The notes under the pieces were generated by a model that was given only the letters and a program-made list of their open reading frames with translations, was not told the origin of the DNA and searched no databases. Below, piece after piece: positions 25,324-60,346 of a stretch of 64,000 nucleotides of DNA. Numbering within the stretch: position 1 is the stretch's first letter; every line of letters starts with the position of its first letter. Source of the DNA: Actinacidiphila paucisporea (GTDB lineage: Bacteria; Actinomycetota; Actinomycetes; Streptomycetales; Streptomycetaceae); contig NZ_FRBI01000018.1 in assembly GCF_900142575.1 (NCBI RefSeq), positions 62,001-126,000 on the forward strand, in the 5' to 3' direction. Position numbers and translations under genes: made by a program.

Positions 25324-26052
25324 ATGCCTACTTCGTCTCCCCGTCCCGCGGCCGCCGACCCGAAGCGGTCGCGCCGCCGCGGCACCCTCCTCGTGGCTGC
25401 CACCGTCACGCTGCTGGCCGCTGCCGCCGCGGGCTGCGGCGACGAGAACGCGTCCGGCTCGCCCGCGGCCTCCACCGGAGCACTCCCGTCCTCGTCCTCC
25501 GCCGCGGCTGCGGCGCCCGGCACCCCGGGCGACCCGGCGTCCGGCACTGCCGGCGACCCCGCCGCGACCGGCTCGCCGGTCGACCCGCAGCCGGCCGCGC
25601 CCACCGCCGGCAGACCGCCCGCCGACACGTCCAAGGACGCCAAACCCCAGGCCCGTAGCGCCCGCTGCACCGTCACCGGGCTGAAGATGACCCTGGGCCG
25701 CGGCGACCCGGGCGCGGGCAGCATCTACTTCCCGCTGAACTTCACCAACACCACCTCGCACCCCTGTACCCTCGACGGGTTCCCCGGTGTGTCACTACTG
25801 CGCGGCGACGGCAGCGTCATCGGCAGGCCGGCCGTCCGCCGAGGCGGCAGGCCGGCCGCCGTACGCATCGCGCCGGGACGGACCGTCGAGGCCGATCTGC
25901 ACACGCTCAACCAGGGCGTGAAGGGCAACAGTTGCTGGCGCAAGCCCACCCTGATCATGGTCTATCCGCCGGGATCGACCGACTCCATGACCCTTGCCAC
26001 GTCGAACCCGGTCGTCTGCGGCGACACCTTCGACGTCGGCCCCGTGCACTGA
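25324..26052 (+). CDS. DUF4232 lipoprotein
   Basis: 242 residues. A basic N-terminus and hydrophobic segment end in the lipobox L-A-A-A-A-A-G-C-G, so the mature protein is probably lipid-anchored outside the membrane. A Ser/Ala/Pro-rich linker of about 75 residues precedes a DUF4232 domain (ARCTVTGLKMTLGRGDPGAGSIYF.., N-T-T-S-H-P-C-T-L-D-G-F-P-G-V-S, Y-P-P-G-S), with Cys pairs typical of the extracellular fold. Function unknown. It is the most divergent of three DUF4232 proteins in the window. Confidence 0.88.
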   Translation: MPTSSPRPAAADPKRSRRRGTLLVAATVTLLAAAAAGCGDENASGSPAASTGALPSSSSAAAAAPGTPGDPASGTAGDPAATGSPVDPQPAAPTAGRPPADTSKDAKPQARSARCTVTGLKMTLGRGDPGAGSIYFPLNFTNTTSHPCTLDGFPGVSLLRGDGSVIGRPAVRRGGRPAAVRIAPGRTVEADLHTLNQGVKGNSCWRKPTLIMVYPPGSTDSMTLATSNPVVCGDTFDVGPVH

Positions 26053-54905: not shown

Positions 54906-54944
54906 GCGCTCCGGCGGATCCCCGGTGGGGATCCGCCGGAGCGC
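54906..54944. terminator. Perfect bidirectional terminator
   Basis: An 18-base perfect stem (54906-54923 with 54927-54944) with a 3-base loop lies between the convergent pectate lyase (stop 54882) and DUF4232 membrane protein (stop 55035). Confidence 0.9.
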
Positions 54945-55034: not shown

Positions 55035-55901
55035 TCAGGACGGCGGATTACCGGTGCTGCCCGCGGTGAAGGGGGTGACGGTGAAGAGGTTGTCGCAGTT
55101 GGTCACGCTGCCCGGGAAGTCCAGCCATGCGGTGTTGCCCGGCGGGTAGATGCGCAGCTTCACCGACGCGGGCAGGCAGGTGCCCTGCTGGTTGACGGTG
55201 TGGATGGTGTCGCTCACCGCCCCGCCCGGCCGCAGCACCACAGGGCGGTAGCTCATCGGCTGCCGGTCGGCCGGCGCACCGATCTGCGCGCCCTTCGCGT
55301 CCAGCATCGACAGGCCCGGGTAGCCGGTGAGGTGGCAGGCCGTGGAGCTGTGGTTGGTGAGCACCAGATAGCGGAAGAGGCTGCCCGCGCCCGCGTCGCC
55401 GCCGCCCAGCGCCGCGGACAGTTGCGAGGTCGCGCACATCGGGGTCGCCCCCGCCGTCTGCGTGCCGGCGTCCCTGGTCGGCGTCGGGCCGGGGGGCGTG
55501 GTGGCCGTGCCGGTGGCGCCCCGGGTGCCGCGGCCGCCCGTGGTCGCGGTCGTGGTCGGGGCGGGGTTCACGGTCGGCGCCGTGTCCGGGCTCGGCCCCG
55601 GGGTCGAAGGGGCTGTGCTGGTCAGCGAGTCGCTGACCGGCGGGCTCACCACCTCGTCCGAGTCGTGCGAGGTCAGCGCGCCCACCAGATAGACGGAACC
55701 GGTCAGCACCACGGCCGCCGCGAGGCCGCCGCCGGCCGCCCGCATCCTGCGCCGCCGCGCCGCCCGCCGCCGGATCCGCCCGAAAGAGCCGGGCGGCGCG
55801 TCCAGATACCCGGGCGGCTGCCGCAGCAGCGGCTCCACCGGGTCGCCGCCGGCGCCTTCGCCGTCCAGGCCGCCCCCCTGGTGGTCAGGAAATCCGGTCA
55901 T
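55035..55901 (-). CDS. Single-pass membrane protein with extracellular DUF4232 domain
   Basis: 288 residues. The N-terminal ~55 residues are cytoplasmic-type (PPGSFGRIRRRAARRRRMRAAG), followed by one transmembrane helix (LAAAVVLTGSVYLVGAL), a Ser/Thr/Pro-rich stalk of about 80 residues, and a DUF4232 domain (M-C-A-T-S-Q-L.., LTNHSSTACHLTGYPGLSML, YPPGN) that closely resembles the LAATG protein at 57298-58017. It overlaps the ECF sigma gene by 17 bases, the place usually held by an anti-sigma factor. No zinc anti-sigma motif is visible, so a sensor/anti-sigma role is an inference. Confidence 0.85.
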   Translation of the reverse strand: MTGFPDHQGGGLDGEGAGGDPVEPLLRQPPGYLDAPPGSFGRIRRRAARRRRMRAAGGGLAAAVVLTGSVYLVGALTSHDSDEVVSPPVSDSLTSTAPSTPGPSPDTAPTVNPAPTTTATTGGRGTRGATGTATTPPGPTPTRDAGTQTAGATPMCATSQLSAALGGGDAGAGSLFRYLVLTNHSSTACHLTGYPGLSMLDAKGAQIGAPADRQPMSYRPVVLRPGGAVSDTIHTVNQQGTCLPASVKLRIYPPGNTAWLDFPGSVTNCDNLFTVTPFTAGSTGNPPS

Positions 55902-56430
55902 GGTGCCCCTCGAGTCGGGCGCGGAGCAGTTCGCGTGCCGCGTGCAGGTCGGCCTTCACGGTTCCCTCGTTCCGGCCAAGCAGCGCGGCCACCTCACGGA
56001 CCGGCAAGTCGGCGTAGTAGTACAGGAGGACGGGATTGCGCAGCCGCTCGGGGAGCGACTGCACCAGCAGGCGTACGGACGGGTCGGCCGCCTCCGCCTG
56101 CGGGCGTAGGGACTGCTCGGTCGTCACCCGGCGCAGCGCGCGGCGCTCGCGCTCCATTTTGCGCCAGTGGTCGCGGACCAGGTTGGCCGCGGTCACGTAG
56201 AGGAAGCCGCCCGGCTCCTCGACCCTGGTCCAGCGCGCCCACAGCCGGGTGAAGGCCTCCGCGGCGATCTCGTGCGCCGTGCCGTCGTCGTCGACCAGCC
56301 GGCGGCACCAGCCCGCGAGCCGCGGGTAGACGGCTTCGAACAGTTCGGAGGCAGCGCGCTCGTCTCGCCGGATGACCGCTCCCCTCACTCCTGTCGCCGA
56401 GGTGCTGACCGCCGCCGGCCAGTCGTTCAC
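55885..56430 (-). CDS. ECF-family RNA polymerase sigma factor
   Basis: 181 residues. Region 2 (ELFEAVYPRLAGWCRRLVDDDGTAHEIAAEAFTRLWARW, about residues 28-68; YVTAANLVRDHWRK as 2.4) and region 4 (LPERLRNPVLLYYYADLPVREVAALLGRNEGTVKADLHAARELLRARL, about 125-172) are present. GTG start overlapping the sortase stop (GTGA), and the 3' end overlaps the DUF4232 membrane-protein gene. It is therefore translated with both and probably transcribes a surface or envelope regulon under control of that membrane protein. Confidence 0.9.
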   Translation of the reverse strand: MNDWPAAVSTSATGVRGAVIRRDERAASELFEAVYPRLAGWCRRLVDDDGTAHEIAAEAFTRLWARWTRVEEPGGFLYVTAANLVRDHWRKMERERRALRRVTTEQSLRPQAEAADPSVRLLVQSLPERLRNPVLLYYYADLPVREVAALLGRNEGTVKADLHAARELLRARLEGHHDRIS

Positions 56431-57221
56431 GGGCCGCCGACCAGCGAGGCGTAGACGATCACGTTGTCCGGGTAGCCGCCGCCGTCCGAGATCCTCGTGC
56501 CGCCGCACGTGATGAGACGCAGCGCGGGGTGGTCGACGTTCCCGTACACCGCGTCCGTCGGGAACCGCGGCTTCGCCACGATCTGCACCTTGTCGACGGC
56601 GAAGACCGCGTCGCTGCCGTCGGCCCGGGTGACCGTCACCCTGTCGCCCGGCCGCATGCGGTCCAGGTGCCGGAAGACGCCGTCGCCGTACTCCCCGACC
56701 GTCACATGCCCCAGCAGCACGGACGGCCCGATCTGCCCGGGCGTCGGCGAGCCGTCGTACCACCCGGCGGGCGCGTGCGCCTCGATCGGCGGTACGCGCA
56801 CCGCGCCGTCCGCTGCCAGGCCGAGCGACATGACGGCGGTGTCCACCCCGATGCCGGGGATCCGCAGCCTTTCCGGCGCCGACCTCGCCATCGCCCTGGC
56901 GGACGGTGTGGCAGTGGTGGTGGTCGGCGCGGCCGACGCGGCGCTCGTGCCCGGCCGGGTCGGGGCGGGCCCGTCGTCCCCCTTTCCCCCGGTCGCACCC
57001 GTACACGCGGTGAGCACCGCGACCGCGGCGGTGGCGGCCACCAGCCACCGCCCGGCGGCCGCCTGCCCGCGCCCCTTCCGGGCACCGGCCGGCGGCCACC
57101 AGCCACCGCCCGGCGGCCGCCTGCCCGCGCCCCTTCCGGGCACCGGCCGGCGTACGGGCGGCGATGCCACGCCGTGGTCGCGCGCGCCCCCGGGGTGGCT
57201 GATCACCGCGCGACAGGCCAC
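56427..57221 (-). CDS. Sortase (class E/F-like) with rewritten N-terminus
   Basis: 264 residues as drawn. The catalytic domain has RLRIPGIGVDTAVMSLGLAADGAVRVPP, GQIGPSVLLGHVTV (catalytic His) and LRLITCGGTR (catalytic Cys), then YPDNVIVYASLV. A hydrophobic segment LVAATAAVAVLTAC just before it is a membrane anchor, perhaps a lipobox (L-T-A-C). Adjacent upstream is a protein ending in an LAATG sorting signal, its probable substrate. The N-terminal coding part contains a 58-bp tandem duplication that changes frame, so the true start is uncertain. GTG 57221 is the best in the present frame. Confidence 0.85.
   Translation of the reverse strand: MACRAVISHPGGARDHGVASPPVRRPVPGRGAGRRPPGGGWWPPAGARKGRGQAAAGRWLVAATAAVAVLTACTGATGGKGDDGPAPTRPGTSAASAAPTTTTATPSARAMARSAPERLRIPGIGVDTAVMSLGLAADGAVRVPPIEAHAPAGWYDGSPTPGQIGPSVLLGHVTVGEYGDGVFRHLDRMRPGDRVTVTRADGSDAVFAVDKVQIVAKPRFPTDAVYGNVDHPALRLITCGGTRISDGGGYPDNVIVYASLVGGP
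57033..57152. repeat. 58-bp perfect tandem duplication within the sortase gene
   Basis: Bases 57033-57090 recur exactly at 57091-57148, and four more bases of a third copy follow. The unit length is 58, so the two copies are read in different frames by the sortase gene (as PVPGRGAGRRPPGG.. and then as GARKGRGQAAAGRWLV..). Without one copy, the frame opening with TTG at 57294 right after the preceding gene's stop would run straight into the sortase. Confidence 0.9.
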
Positions 57222-57297
57222 CTCTCGGTGGCGCGAGGGACCGCGGCCGTGACGCGGTCGCCCCGCGCGGGGAGGGCTCAGGGGTGGCGGCCAACGC

Positions 57298-58017
57298 TCA
57301 GTCCCTGGCGCCGCGGCGGCGACGTGCGGCGGTGGCGACGGCCAGGCCGCCGAGGAGGGCGCTACCGGCGGCCGCGCCCGCGGTCATGGCGGGGGAGTGG
57401 CCGCCACCGGTCGCGGCGAGGCCGGTGTCGGGCGCGCCCGAGGGGACCTGCGGCACCTGGCGGCCGGCGGCCGAGGTGGACGTAGGGGTCGGGGCCGGTG
57501 CCGTCACCGGGTCACTGCCGTTGCGCCCGGCAGCCATCGGCGTGACCGTGAGGGTGTGGTAGCAGTTCGTGATGGTGCCGGGGATGACCATCGCCGCGGT
57601 GTTGCCGGGCGGGTATATCCGCACCTTGGCCGACGGCGGCAGGCACGTCCCCTGGTGGTTGACGGTGTGGATCGTGTCGCTCGCCGACCCCCCGGGTTTC
57701 AGCACCACCGCCGCGTAACGGCTGCTCTGCCGGTCGGCCGGCGGTCCGATCTGCCTGCCGGCCGAGTCGAGCAGCGACACCCCGGGGTAGCCGGTGAGGT
57801 GGCAGGTCGTCGAGCTGTGGTTGGTGAGGACCAGATAGCGGTAGAGGTGGCCCGCGCCCGCGTCCCCGCCGCCCAGCGCGCCGGTCAGCTGCGAGGTCGT
57901 GCACATCGGGGTCCTGGGGGCCCGGCCGACGGGGGCCGAGGCGGCGGCGGGGACGGCTCCCGCGACCGCCACCGCCAGGACCACCGCCGCGCCGGCGGCG
58001 AGTGAAGTGCTGCGCAT
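57298..58017 (-). CDS. LAATG-anchored surface protein with DUF4232 domain
   Basis: 239 residues. Signal peptide (LAAGAAVVLAVAVAGAVPAAASA), DUF4232 domain from about residue 38 (M-C-T-T-S-Q-L.., LTNHSSTTCHLTGYPGVSLL, DTIHTVNHQGTCLPP, YPPGN), Pro/Thr/Ser linker, then the sorting signal D-T-G-L-A-A-T-G-G-G, a hydrophobic span and the basic tail R-R-R-R-G-A-R-D. The LAxTG signal is the kind used by class E sortases in streptomycetes, and the sortase gene follows directly. The DUF4232 domain shares long identical stretches with the membrane protein at 55035-55901. Function unknown. Confidence 0.9.
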   Translation of the reverse strand: MRSTSLAAGAAVVLAVAVAGAVPAAASAPVGRAPRTPMCTTSQLTGALGGGDAGAGHLYRYLVLTNHSSTTCHLTGYPGVSLLDSAGRQIGPPADRQSSRYAAVVLKPGGSASDTIHTVNHQGTCLPPSAKVRIYPPGNTAAMVIPGTITNCYHTLTVTPMAAGRNGSDPVTAPAPTPTSTSAAGRQVPQVPSGAPDTGLAATGGGHSPAMTAGAAAGSALLGGLAVATAARRRRGARD

Positions 58018-58128
58018 GTCCCGTTCCTCGTTTCTCCCGCGGGGCCCGCCGCGCCCGGAAGCGGACGCGGACCCGGGCCGTACCGGGATCGGGAGCAGAG
58101 ACGACGCGGCGCCCGCCCGGGTTGTAAA

Positions 58129-58142
58129 GACTTGGCCAAGTC
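58129..58142. promoter_or_regulatory. 14-bp perfect palindrome between the sortase and VWA operons
   Basis: GACTTGGCCAAGTC is perfectly self-complementary and stands about 110 bases upstream of the LAATG gene and about 100 bases upstream of the divergent VWA gene, next to the AT-rich TTGTAAA. It is a candidate operator for either or both operons; the regulator is unknown. Confidence 0.45.
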
Positions 58143-58238
58143 CGCCCGGACGGAACGGAGTCCGGCATTCCGGGTGCCAGGTCCTCGCGCTGACCAGCCG
58201 ACTTCATGATTGGGCCGGACCTTCACTACGATCCTGCG

Positions 58239-59501
58239 ATGATCATGAGAAGACTCGTGGCCACGGGAATGGCCGGTGGCCTGCTGGCCACCCTCGCCTG
58301 CGGGCTGCTGCCCGCGAGCGCCGCCGCGGACGAACCCGCGGCGCAACCCGCACCGAAGGTCGAACTCGTCCTCGACGTCAGCGGCTCCATGCGGGCCAAG
58401 GACATCGACGGGCAGAGCCGGATGTCCGCCGCCAAGCAGGCCTTCGACGACGTCCTGGACTCGACGCCGCCGGAGGTCAACCTCGGGATACGCACCCTCG
58501 GCGCGGACTACCCGGGCAACGACCGCAAGACCGGCTGCAAGGACACCAGGCAGCTCTACCCGGTCGGCCCGCTGAACCGCACCGAGGCCAAGACCGCGGT
58601 GGCCACCCTCGCCCCCACCGGCTGGACCCCGATCGGCCCCGCCCTGCTCGCGGCGGCCGCCGACCTCAAGGCGGGCGGTGACGGCACCGCCAGGATGGTG
58701 CTGATCACCGACGGCCAGGACACCTGCAACGCCAACCCCTGCGATGTCGCCCGCGACATCGCCGCCCAGGGCATCCACCTGGTCATCGACACGCTCGGCC
58801 TGATCCCCGACTCCACCACCCGCAACCAGCTCAGCTGCATCGCCGAGGCGACCGGCGGCACGTACACCACCGTGCAGCACCGCGCGCAGCTCACCACGAA
58901 GGTGAAGCAGCTGGTCAACCGCAGCACCGCCCCGGTGATCACCCCGGTGGCCACCGACGGCGCCGCGAACTGCGCGGACGCGCCCGTGCTCAAGGCGGGG
59001 CTCTACTCCGACCGGGAGACCTTCTCCGAGAACCGCTGGTACCGCGTCGACGTACGCCCCGGCCAGGAGCTGCGCGCCTCGGTGAGCATCAGCGACGACC
59101 GGGCCGTCAACGCCGGCTACGGCGTCCTGCTGCGCGGCGTCACCCTGCACGGGCGGGAGATCGTGCGCGACGACGAGGGCGGCACCGGGCGTACCGACGC
59201 AGTCTCGGCCGGCATCCGCTACCCCAAGCCGAAGGCCGACTCGGACACGCCCGCGGAGACCGTGTGCCTCCAGGTCGGCAACTCCTTCTCCGCGCCGGCC
59301 TCCGTCAAGACCATCCCCGGCCTGCCCGTCGAGCTGTCCATCGACCTGGTGCACAGCCCCGACCAGCCGTCCGACGTGGCCTTCTACGGGCTCGGGCGCG
59401 GCTGGTGGCTGCTGGGACTGCTGGCCGTCACCGGCGCGGTGGCCGGACTGCTGACCGGCTGGGCCGCCCGCTGGCGGATGAACTCGGGGAGGACCTCCTG
59501 A
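58239..59501 (+). CDS. Secreted/membrane-anchored von Willebrand factor A domain protein
   Basis: 420 residues. The signal peptide (MRRLVATGMAGGLLATLACGLLPASAAA) precedes a VWA domain with a complete-looking MIDAS: D-V-S-G-S-M (about residue 46), a Thr in the TGWTPIG loop, and ITDGQD. A second beta-rich domain (about residues 245-385) and one C-terminal transmembrane helix (WWLLGLLAVTGAVAGLLTGWAA) follow. TACGAT at 58227-58232 just before the ATG suggests a leaderless transcript. It is coupled to the next gene (TGATG). Confidence 0.87.
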   Translation: MIMRRLVATGMAGGLLATLACGLLPASAAADEPAAQPAPKVELVLDVSGSMRAKDIDGQSRMSAAKQAFDDVLDSTPPEVNLGIRTLGADYPGNDRKTGCKDTRQLYPVGPLNRTEAKTAVATLAPTGWTPIGPALLAAAADLKAGGDGTARMVLITDGQDTCNANPCDVARDIAAQGIHLVIDTLGLIPDSTTRNQLSCIAEATGGTYTTVQHRAQLTTKVKQLVNRSTAPVITPVATDGAANCADAPVLKAGLYSDRETFSENRWYRVDVRPGQELRASVSISDDRAVNAGYGVLLRGVTLHGREIVRDDEGGTGRTDAVSAGIRYPKPKADSDTPAETVCLQVGNSFSAPASVKTIPGLPVELSIDLVHSPDQPSDVAFYGLGRGWWLLGLLAVTGAVAGLLTGWAARWRMNSGRTS

Positions 59502-60346
59502 TGCGCACCGCACGACGTTTGGCCGCGGTGGGACTGCTCGCCGCGACCGCGCTGACCGTACTGACCGGCCGGGCCGCGGCCGACGCCACCCCGAGCGCCA
59601 CGCCCAGCGCGAGCGCGACCTCGGGCGAACAGGGGCCGCCCACCGAGGCGGGCACCAACTTCCGTACCGCCACCGTGATCAAGCAGGGCCAGCAGGCCAC
59701 CGCCGGCGCGTCGGCGGGCGACTACCTGTACTGGGTGGTGCCCGCTGACACCGGGCAGAAGGTCACGGTCAAGGCGACCGTGACCTTCGGCTCGGGCTCA
59801 GGGGCCGCCGCCACGCACGGCGCCTCGACCTGGCAGCTCGACGTCTACGACGGACTGCGCCGCCGCCAGCCGTGCCGTTACGGCGCCCAGACCCGTACGG
59901 CCGCCGCCGGCGCGGCGACCGTGGAACTGGCCTGCACCCTGCGCCCGGTGCGCGCCTACGCCGACACCTGGTCCAACGACCCGCTGCGCGGCGCCTACTA
60001 CCTGCGGCTGACCGCGCTGGACGTGCCGGAGGCCGACCTCGGCCAGCCGGTGCGCGCGGCGATCACGGTCACCTCGCACGGCACCGCCGGCCGCGACGCG
60101 GTCGACGGCTCGGTGGCCCCGGTGGTCTCCGCGAACGCGCCCGACGTCGCACCCGCCGGCGGTTGGGCGGGCACCTGGTGGTCGCCGCGCTGGCTGTGGA
60201 CCGGTGGCGGCGGCCTGCTCGCCGTCCTCGCCGCGCTCGGCGCCCACCGGCTGGCCCGGGGCCCGCTGCGGACGGCCCACCGCCCCCGTCCGCACGACGC
60301 GGACCGGCCCCCCTACCCGCGCGAAGGCGCGGGCTACTCCGGCTGA
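59501..60346 (+). CDS. Membrane-anchored secreted protein, partner of the VWA protein
   Basis: 281 residues. A signal peptide (RLAAVGLLAATALTVLTGRAAA), a Ser/Thr/Ala linker, a beta-rich extracellular domain (GDYLYWVVPADTGQKVTVKATVTF.., two Cys: RRQPCRY and VELACTL), and a C-terminal transmembrane helix (GGGLLAVLAALGAHRL) with a basic, Pro-rich tail. The extracellular part resembles the second domain of the VWA protein in style (D-Y/W-Y-W/R-V-x-x-G-Q). GGGGAGGA precedes the ATG, which overlaps the VWA stop by one base. Function unknown; a complex with the VWA protein is likely. Confidence 0.82.
   Translation: MRTARRLAAVGLLAATALTVLTGRAAADATPSATPSASATSGEQGPPTEAGTNFRTATVIKQGQQATAGASAGDYLYWVVPADTGQKVTVKATVTFGSGSGAAATHGASTWQLDVYDGLRRRQPCRYGAQTRTAAAGAATVELACTLRPVRAYADTWSNDPLRGAYYLRLTALDVPEADLGQPVRAAITVTSHGTAGRDAVDGSVAPVVSANAPDVAPAGGWAGTWWSPRWLWTGGGGLLAVLAALGAHRLARGPLRTAHRPRPHDADRPPYPREGAGYSG

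Follow-up and report, generated by a model that had tools for sequence, protein, structure and literature searches.

A conserved four-gene operon of Actinacidiphila and its relatives sets a class F sortase and its likely wall-protein substrate beside an extracytoplasmic function sigma factor and a putative membrane regulator

The stretch of DNA analysed here, 64,000 nucleotides from contig NZ_FRBI01000018.1 of Actinacidiphila paucisporea (the window; host genome 8.16 Mb), contains a four-gene operon that is real and conserved. On the minus strand it is transcribed in the order wall protein with a DUF4232 domain, class F sortase, extracytoplasmic function (ECF) sigma factor and membrane protein with a second DUF4232 domain. 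The features are as follows:

58097 to 58130, minus strand: predicted self-regulated ECF promoter TCTTTACAACC-N16-CGTCTCT, 5' of the wall gene (G000:C21:120097-120130)
57298 to 58017, minus strand: wall protein of 239 amino acids, with signal peptide, DUF4232 (PF14016, 110.3 bits), proline/threonine-rich (P/T-rich) stalk, GAPDTG, transmembrane segment and basic tail
56427 to 57221, minus strand: class F sortase (NF033748, 190.3 bits), with a lipobox-like LTAC after an N-terminal hydrophobic stretch; start codon uncertain
55885 to 56430, minus strand: ECF sigma factor with regions 2 and 4 (Pfam), a GTG start and a 4-nucleotide overlap with the sortase stop
55035 to 55901, minus strand: membrane protein in anti-sigma position, 288 amino acids, with cytoplasmic tail, one transmembrane helix, P/T-rich linker and DUF4232 ectodomain (PF14016, 96.5 bits)

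A first-pass annotation, made by a model from the sequence alone, had described a compact operon here, and each gene was found at the place it had given, with the domains confirmed by Pfam and NCBIfam. Both DUF4232 copies exceeded the gathering score of 27, and sigma70 regions 2 and 4 were above their Pfam cut-offs. The sortase gave 81.4 bits with the Sortase domain of Pfam and passed the cut-off of NF033748 (191.4 bits in the genome search, against 166), which places it in class F. The gene junctions (76 bases between wall and sortase genes, a GTGA overlap between sortase and sigma genes, and a 17-base overlap between sigma and membrane-protein genes) were also as annotated. A defence system was considered and rejected, as none of the four proteins had a PADLOC match at E <= 0.01.

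The gene order is conserved among related genomes; a lack of such synteny, which the annotation had named as its refutation, was thus not observed. In a scan of 35 Actinacidiphila genomes (matches at E <= 0.001), each of the DUF4232 proteins was matched in 30, and both were present in 25 by row-by-row reading, about 2-3 kb apart when they shared a contig. The membrane-protein match was full length in 23 of those 25; the protein was split across contigs in G015, its frame looked broken in G034, and the wall and membrane copies lay on separate contigs in G032. A further scan with the sigma-factor alignment gave 331 relatives among named genomes, and the best 80 were kept. With the regions of the genus, weaker hits included, there were 119 loci in all (the window, L069-L106 and L107-L186). 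Domain starts in these loci may be inexact, without effect on which genes are present. L105 and L106, with sigma factors scoring <200 bits, were excluded from the counts, leaving 117 loci, 103 of them non-redundant; the broken frame of L090 was left as it is.

The module occurs in three forms. In form III, that of the window, the wall protein and the membrane protein each have a DUF4232 domain. In form II neither has one, and both ectodomains are rich in P, T, S and A (64% of the membrane-protein ectodomain and 68% of the wall stalk, as raw composition with no baseline from secreted proteins). It was seen in some Actinacidiphila as well as many Streptomyces, and L263-L267 represent it in a second family of the order. 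Certain Actinacidiphila genomes have it alongside form III (L081 and L095 of G002, for instance). Form I, seen in five loci (L268-L272), consists of the sigma factor and a membrane DUF4232 protein, with the domain above the Pfam cut-off in 4/4 tested; neither a sortase, a wall motif nor the promoter was found within the 8.5 kb fetched.

In 109 of 117 loci (redundant loci included), the sortase gene is preceded by a wall gene with a sorting-type C-terminus; several of the eight loci in which none was found are cut contigs. The sorting motif was GAPDTG in 96 of the 109, GAPNTG in 10, GAADTG in 2 and GGSDTG in 1, and it stood 44-51 residues from the C-terminus in all but one. A GA[PA][DN]TG gene is thus found upstream of the sortase in 108/117 loci, which agrees with the annotation's placing of the surface protein beside its own likely sortase. 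Its choice of LAATG as the motif of that protein did not hold: L[AP]xTG occurs within the last 70 residues of only 15/109 wall proteins, and LAATG was rejected as the sorting signal. The choice is explained by the window protein itself, in which LAATG (residues 200-204) directly follows GAPDTG (residues 194-199). The conserved LAxTG motif that marks class E-type substrates is not a shared feature of these wall proteins. From the sequences we infer that the wall protein is sorted by the sortase of the module.

The catalytic His and Cys motifs of the window sortase are LGHV and LITCG, and both patterns were present in 87 of 101 sortases scored. Of 91 loci that could be scored with a loose, uncontrolled lipobox pattern, 86 matched; a strict pattern matched 79 of 95.

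Further observations concern the sortases. Some of those in form II (L171, L175 and L092) have a twin-arginine-like SRRAF stretch ahead of the lipobox, suggesting that they may be lipoproteins exported by the twin-arginine translocation pathway. The leader region of the window sortase contains a perfect 58-bp tandem duplication (2.1 copies, 57033-57152); this length is not divisible by three, so the duplication alters the frame upstream and leaves the start codon in doubt. The genome has three further class F sortases (L199, L200 and L202). Those of L200 and L202 lie near small proteins that end in a hydrophobic stretch and a basic tail, and no gene resembling the module's sigma factor is labelled in the short loci. 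The lipobox was rejected as a peculiarity of the module's sortase, since L202 also has one; none was seen in L199 or L200.

The window sigma factor scored 85 bits with TIGR02983, below the cut-off of 141.55 for the SigE family. Its gene overlaps that of the sortase by 4 nucleotides in 49 of 101 loci of the set, as in the window. The overlap at its other end is nearly invariable. Among non-redundant loci with at least 300 nucleotides after the sigma stop, and with no preference among starts, a start codon lay at exactly -17 relative to that stop in 89 of 90; the mean for other offsets was about one locus, and the next best offset, -4, was found in 36 of the 90. The open reading frame that encodes a basic run and a hydrophobic stretch was the -17 frame in 88/90 loci and any other frame in none. 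An earlier choice of starts, which favoured -17, had placed 93 of 103 there, with eight loci lacking sequence past the sigma gene, no start obtained for L090, and L179 at +246. The 17-base overlap of the annotation is thus both correct and beyond chance.

The membrane protein had been described as standing in the anti-sigma position with a short basic cytoplasmic tail, and this tail proved to be its conserved part. In an alignment of 93 rows made without an anchor, a block of L, PxG and RR.A.RRR was conserved (L 0.98, P 0.99, G 0.98, arginines 0.95-1.0), and it is kept though the ectodomains differ between forms. Just outside the membrane a PP motif was present in 82 of 90 scorable loci, compared to 126 of 385 control windows. 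A structural model of the protein (mean predicted local distance difference test score, pLDDT, 60.9; predicted template modelling score 0.39) was of low overall confidence; it placed a single long helix at residues 40-76, leading from the basic block across the membrane. On the strength of the gene overlap and the conserved tail, the membrane protein would be an anti-sigma factor that binds the sigma factor through the tail. The protein might instead help the sortase or its substrate, with the sigma factor controlled at the level of transcription only. Such a role would suit the PP motif, which could be a protein contact, and the outcome of a search of Pfam, where no anti-sigma family matched the membrane protein up to E = 1 (which is not an exclusion). 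It would leave unexplained the near-invariable overlap with the sigma gene, the conserved cytoplasmic tail, and the five form I loci in which the two genes occur without sortase or wall protein, and we regard it as improbable.

In L105 and L106, a different ECF sigma factor is followed by a membrane protein with a similar basic tail and another ectodomain, so this type of tail may extend beyond the module.

The promoter has the core TACAACC-N16-CGTC. This lay 66-139 nucleotides before 70 of 96 wall genes, with a spacer of 16 in 69 and 17 in one, compared to a single exact match in 3552 control windows. Its long form, TCTTTACAACC-N16-CGTCTCT, occurred in 43 of 150 genomes of the family, once in each; the reversed control gave 0. 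When 30 long-promoter loci were opened (mostly known genus loci, the window included), 29 led into a wall gene (28 with GAPDTG, one with GAPATG), with the sorting motif 240-724 nucleotides downstream. Across the order, 119 genomes were scanned for the sigma factor; 49 yielded a match at E <= 1e-40, always a single one, with 43 at 1e-80 or better and six near 1e-55 to 1e-58. Fifteen of these regions were opened. The nine from the stronger group had the sortase in 9/9, the core promoter in 9/9, the wall motif in eight and the membrane protein in eight; no sortase was found in the six from the weaker group. From the position and form of this promoter we infer that it is the one read by the sigma factor. 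In the host genome the short pattern was matched 12 times and its reversed control 13 times, so that the operon is the only regulon member that can be named.

A conserved block, GACTTTGCC or similar, stands immediately 5' of the -35 element in forms II and III. At this place the window has a palindrome, GACTTGGCCAAGTC (58129-58142), which is perhaps an operator or a second promoter element.

The annotation had called the DUF4232 stretches of the wall and membrane proteins near-identical. A related pair they are, but their identity is 72%. Three of the six other DUF4232 copies of the genome could be aligned, with 29-40% identity, and a third DUF4232 protein of the window (25666-26049, plus strand; G000:C21:87666-88049; 110.4 bits) is 36-40% identical to the twins. 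Among 26 loci, the twins of one locus were more alike (70.6%) than permuted pairs (65.0%, sd 0.6; 0/5000 permutations reached the observed value). The same excess was seen at silent codons (0.740 within a locus, compared to 0.690-0.691 permuted), of which codon usage accounts for 0.005 (0.611 predicted, compared to 0.605). The twin counts exclude L091 and L117, and the codon-usage control excludes L179 as well. In a DUF4232 tree, wall and membrane copies were intermixed, with few firm branches. As silent sites show the excess too, the simplest cause of the similarity is gene conversion between the twins, which probably explains it at least partly, and the similarity alone is therefore no proof that they interact.

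The distribution of the domain was equally concordant. In 88 complete loci, DUF4232 was present in both proteins in 25, in neither in 63 and in one only in 0. Over all 103 loci, 75, mostly from Streptomyces, were without it, and a membrane copy alone was seen in two (L091 and L115, both on cut contigs); in L091 this copy (T_L091) seems to be a wall copy that was assigned wrongly. On the sigma-factor tree, presence in both proteins is a single change, and with form I as outgroup, forms II and III fall on opposite sides of a branch, with modest support for form III (83/73). The concordance thus goes back to one evolutionary event and not to repeated co-gain.

What kind of domain is DUF4232? Its model is a beta-sandwich (mean pLDDT 90.1), with no Foldseek match with E <= 0.001 and no PDB sequence match up to E = 1. 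The best VIA match was an archaellum stator protein (Z 5.8), with unrelated sandwiches tied below, so that no function follows. No paper on DUF4232, alone or with a sortase, was found among the open-licence literature.

These data bear on the mechanism that the annotation had in mind, in which the wall and membrane DUF4232 domains bind each other or compete for a ligand, so that the anchored protein, or sortase activity, gates the sigma factor. The both-or-neither pattern in 88/88 complete loci and the greater likeness of twins within a locus are what such a mechanism would lead one to expect. The pattern is, however, one event on the tree, and the excess at silent sites points to gene conversion. 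Competition is also unlikely to be the core of the module, since 63 of the 88 complete loci have neither copy and the five form I loci pair the sigma factor with a membrane DUF4232 protein without sortase or wall protein. We consider competition between the twins unlikely; if it exists, it is an add-on in one clade.

The annotation also knew of no described system of this form. That statement has to be withdrawn, as a version without DUF4232 is found in many Streptomyces, and a likely relative, matched by its described gene order, exists in Streptomyces coelicolor. In the passages of PMC5882110 that concern it, the order SCO3738-SCO3737-SCO3736-(SCO3735) agrees with form II, running from a membrane protein through a lipoprotein/sortase and an ECF sigma factor to a secreted protein. 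SCO3737 is called a lipoprotein with homology to cd05829, like the lipobox sortase of the module, and SCO3735 is a putative secreted protein downstream of the operon SCO3736-SCO3738. The three most significant changes in a mutant of ppm1 (polyprenol-phosphate-mannose synthase) were in this operon, with sco3736 up 13-fold, sco3737 37-fold and sco3738 32-fold (PMC5882110). This likely relative was noted in 2018, and a substrate relation of the sortase to sco3738 had already been suggested there. The passages describe neither the promoter nor GAPDTG, nor do they present sco3735 as an anti-sigma factor. New here are the -17 start, the TACAACC-N16-CGTC promoter, the both-or-neither distribution of DUF4232, the gene conversion indicated between the twins and the sortase-less form. 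In other reports, as far as the relevant passages go, SCO3736 is listed among germination sigma factors (PMC3902916), and the physiological roles of class F sortases are stated as unknown (PMC13251363). What sets the module sortase, above the NF033748 cut-off, apart from class F sortases at large is the adjoining sigma factor and one likely substrate.

The induction in the ppm1 mutant also fits a plain envelope-stress ECF system, in which wall protein and sortase are outputs without feedback and DUF4232 is a spacer or wall-binding domain copied by recombination. Gene conversion between the twins and the single long-form promoter in each genome that has one are in line with this. Such a system leaves it unexplained why the sigma factor is devoted to its own operon, and why the form without DUF4232 keeps ectodomains of like, P/T-rich composition in both proteins, though both arguments are weak. 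We hold it to be possible but doubtful.

As regards known regulators, the module resembles the class I and II ECF/anti-sigma pairs described in the relevant part of PMC7406223, in which the sigma gene is overlapped by that of a single-pass membrane protein with a cytoplasmic N-terminus and the promoter is predicted to be self-regulated. In contrast to these pairs, the membrane protein of the module has no recognised anti-sigma domain, and its ectodomain is DUF4232 or a P/T-rich stretch. Its short tail is nearer in size to class II anti-sigma factors, with their two short helices, which is a resemblance only (PMC7406223).

Taken together, we lean, by a little, towards a self-regulated, envelope-sensing ECF/anti-sigma module that builds one wall protein. 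Gene order, motifs, promoter and twins are given by the sequences; the steps that follow are a proposal. The membrane protein would act as the anti-sigma factor, its short cytoplasmic tail holding the sigma factor at the membrane while its P/T-rich ectodomain, tipped by DUF4232, reaches into the wall. Sensing through this membrane regulator is likely. An envelope disturbance, such as the loss of polyprenol-phosphate-mannose supply in S. coelicolor, would cause the anti-sigma factor to release the sigma factor, which would then use the one dedicated promoter to transcribe the operon that encodes it. This would raise the levels of the wall protein and of the lipoprotein class F sortase, and the sortase would anchor the wall protein at GAPDTG. 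In the clade with DUF4232 twins the sensor's domain is duplicated in the wall protein, which would therefore probably bind the same wall partner as the sensor and damp the signal; this damping role is speculative. So is O-mannosylation of the P/T stretches as the signal sensed; the host genome has one PMT-family match.

Several observations weigh against this proposal, besides the missing anti-sigma family match and the conversion and single origin of the twins. The modelled tail is of low confidence (pLDDT 43-63 over residues 1-40). Of 96 loci, 26 are without the exact core promoter, although 22 of these have 9 or 10 of its 11 letters with a spacer of 16 within 150 nucleotides (a best-of search, uncontrolled), and L228 has a long promoter without the module. 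A crude pattern for the conserved Arg of the sortase (TCGGTR in the window) matched only 40/101. The match to SCO3738-3735 was made through the described gene order and not at the sequence level, and the flanking genes of Streptomyces loci gave no help in confirming the match. For SCO3735, the presumed anti-sigma gene, the passages give no induction, the operon of the paper being SCO3736-SCO3738 (PMC5882110). The RNA sequencing was on ppm1, not pmt (PMC5882110), so that glycosylation is not separated from general envelope stress. The main text of a glycoproteome paper does not name SCO3735-3738 (PMC6593405), SCO3736 is down after acid shock (PMC2631018), and the phenotype of Actinoplanes missouriensis without all four class F sortases is reported as unchanged (PMC13251363).

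Two features border the operon. Between its convergent end and that of a pectate lyase gene lies a possible two-way terminator, which was not reported by the terminator scan, as this demands a T run:

54906 to 54944, no strand assigned: inverted repeat with an 18-bp perfect stem and a 3-base loop (stem checked in the sequence)

On the other side, and divergent from the operon, 58206-60346 encodes a VWA-domain protein and a second secreted or membrane protein. A VWA homologue is labelled in 19 of 23 genus regions (L069-L091), sometimes with intervening genes.

What would the module mean for its hosts? In cell-surface signalling of the FecA-FecR-FecI kind, a Gram-negative outer-membrane receptor, with no sortase, reports to an ECF sigma factor and its regulator. 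The likeness, one of arrangement, is that a surface protein and the ectodomain of an ECF regulator could interact. A Gram-positive counterpart, in which a sortase-anchored wall protein reports through a shared domain to the anti-sigma ectodomain, so that the sigma factor gauges its own anchored product (and perhaps its mannosylation) and adjusts a single operon, is an idea that we think unlikely. Should the wall protein indeed act back on the sensor, this would amount to surface signalling of a new kind in Gram-positive bacteria. More concretely, the module links a class F sortase with a single sigma factor, a single promoter and a single likely substrate, and so offers such a sortase a role that can be tested, in the repair or decoration of the wall when the envelope is under stress; according to the passages on the S. 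coelicolor operon, its likely relative is strongly induced when the polyprenol-phosphate-mannose supply fails (PMC5882110). In Streptomyces-like soil bacteria, it appears, these four linked genes work as a unit that regulates itself and adds one dedicated protein to the cell wall.

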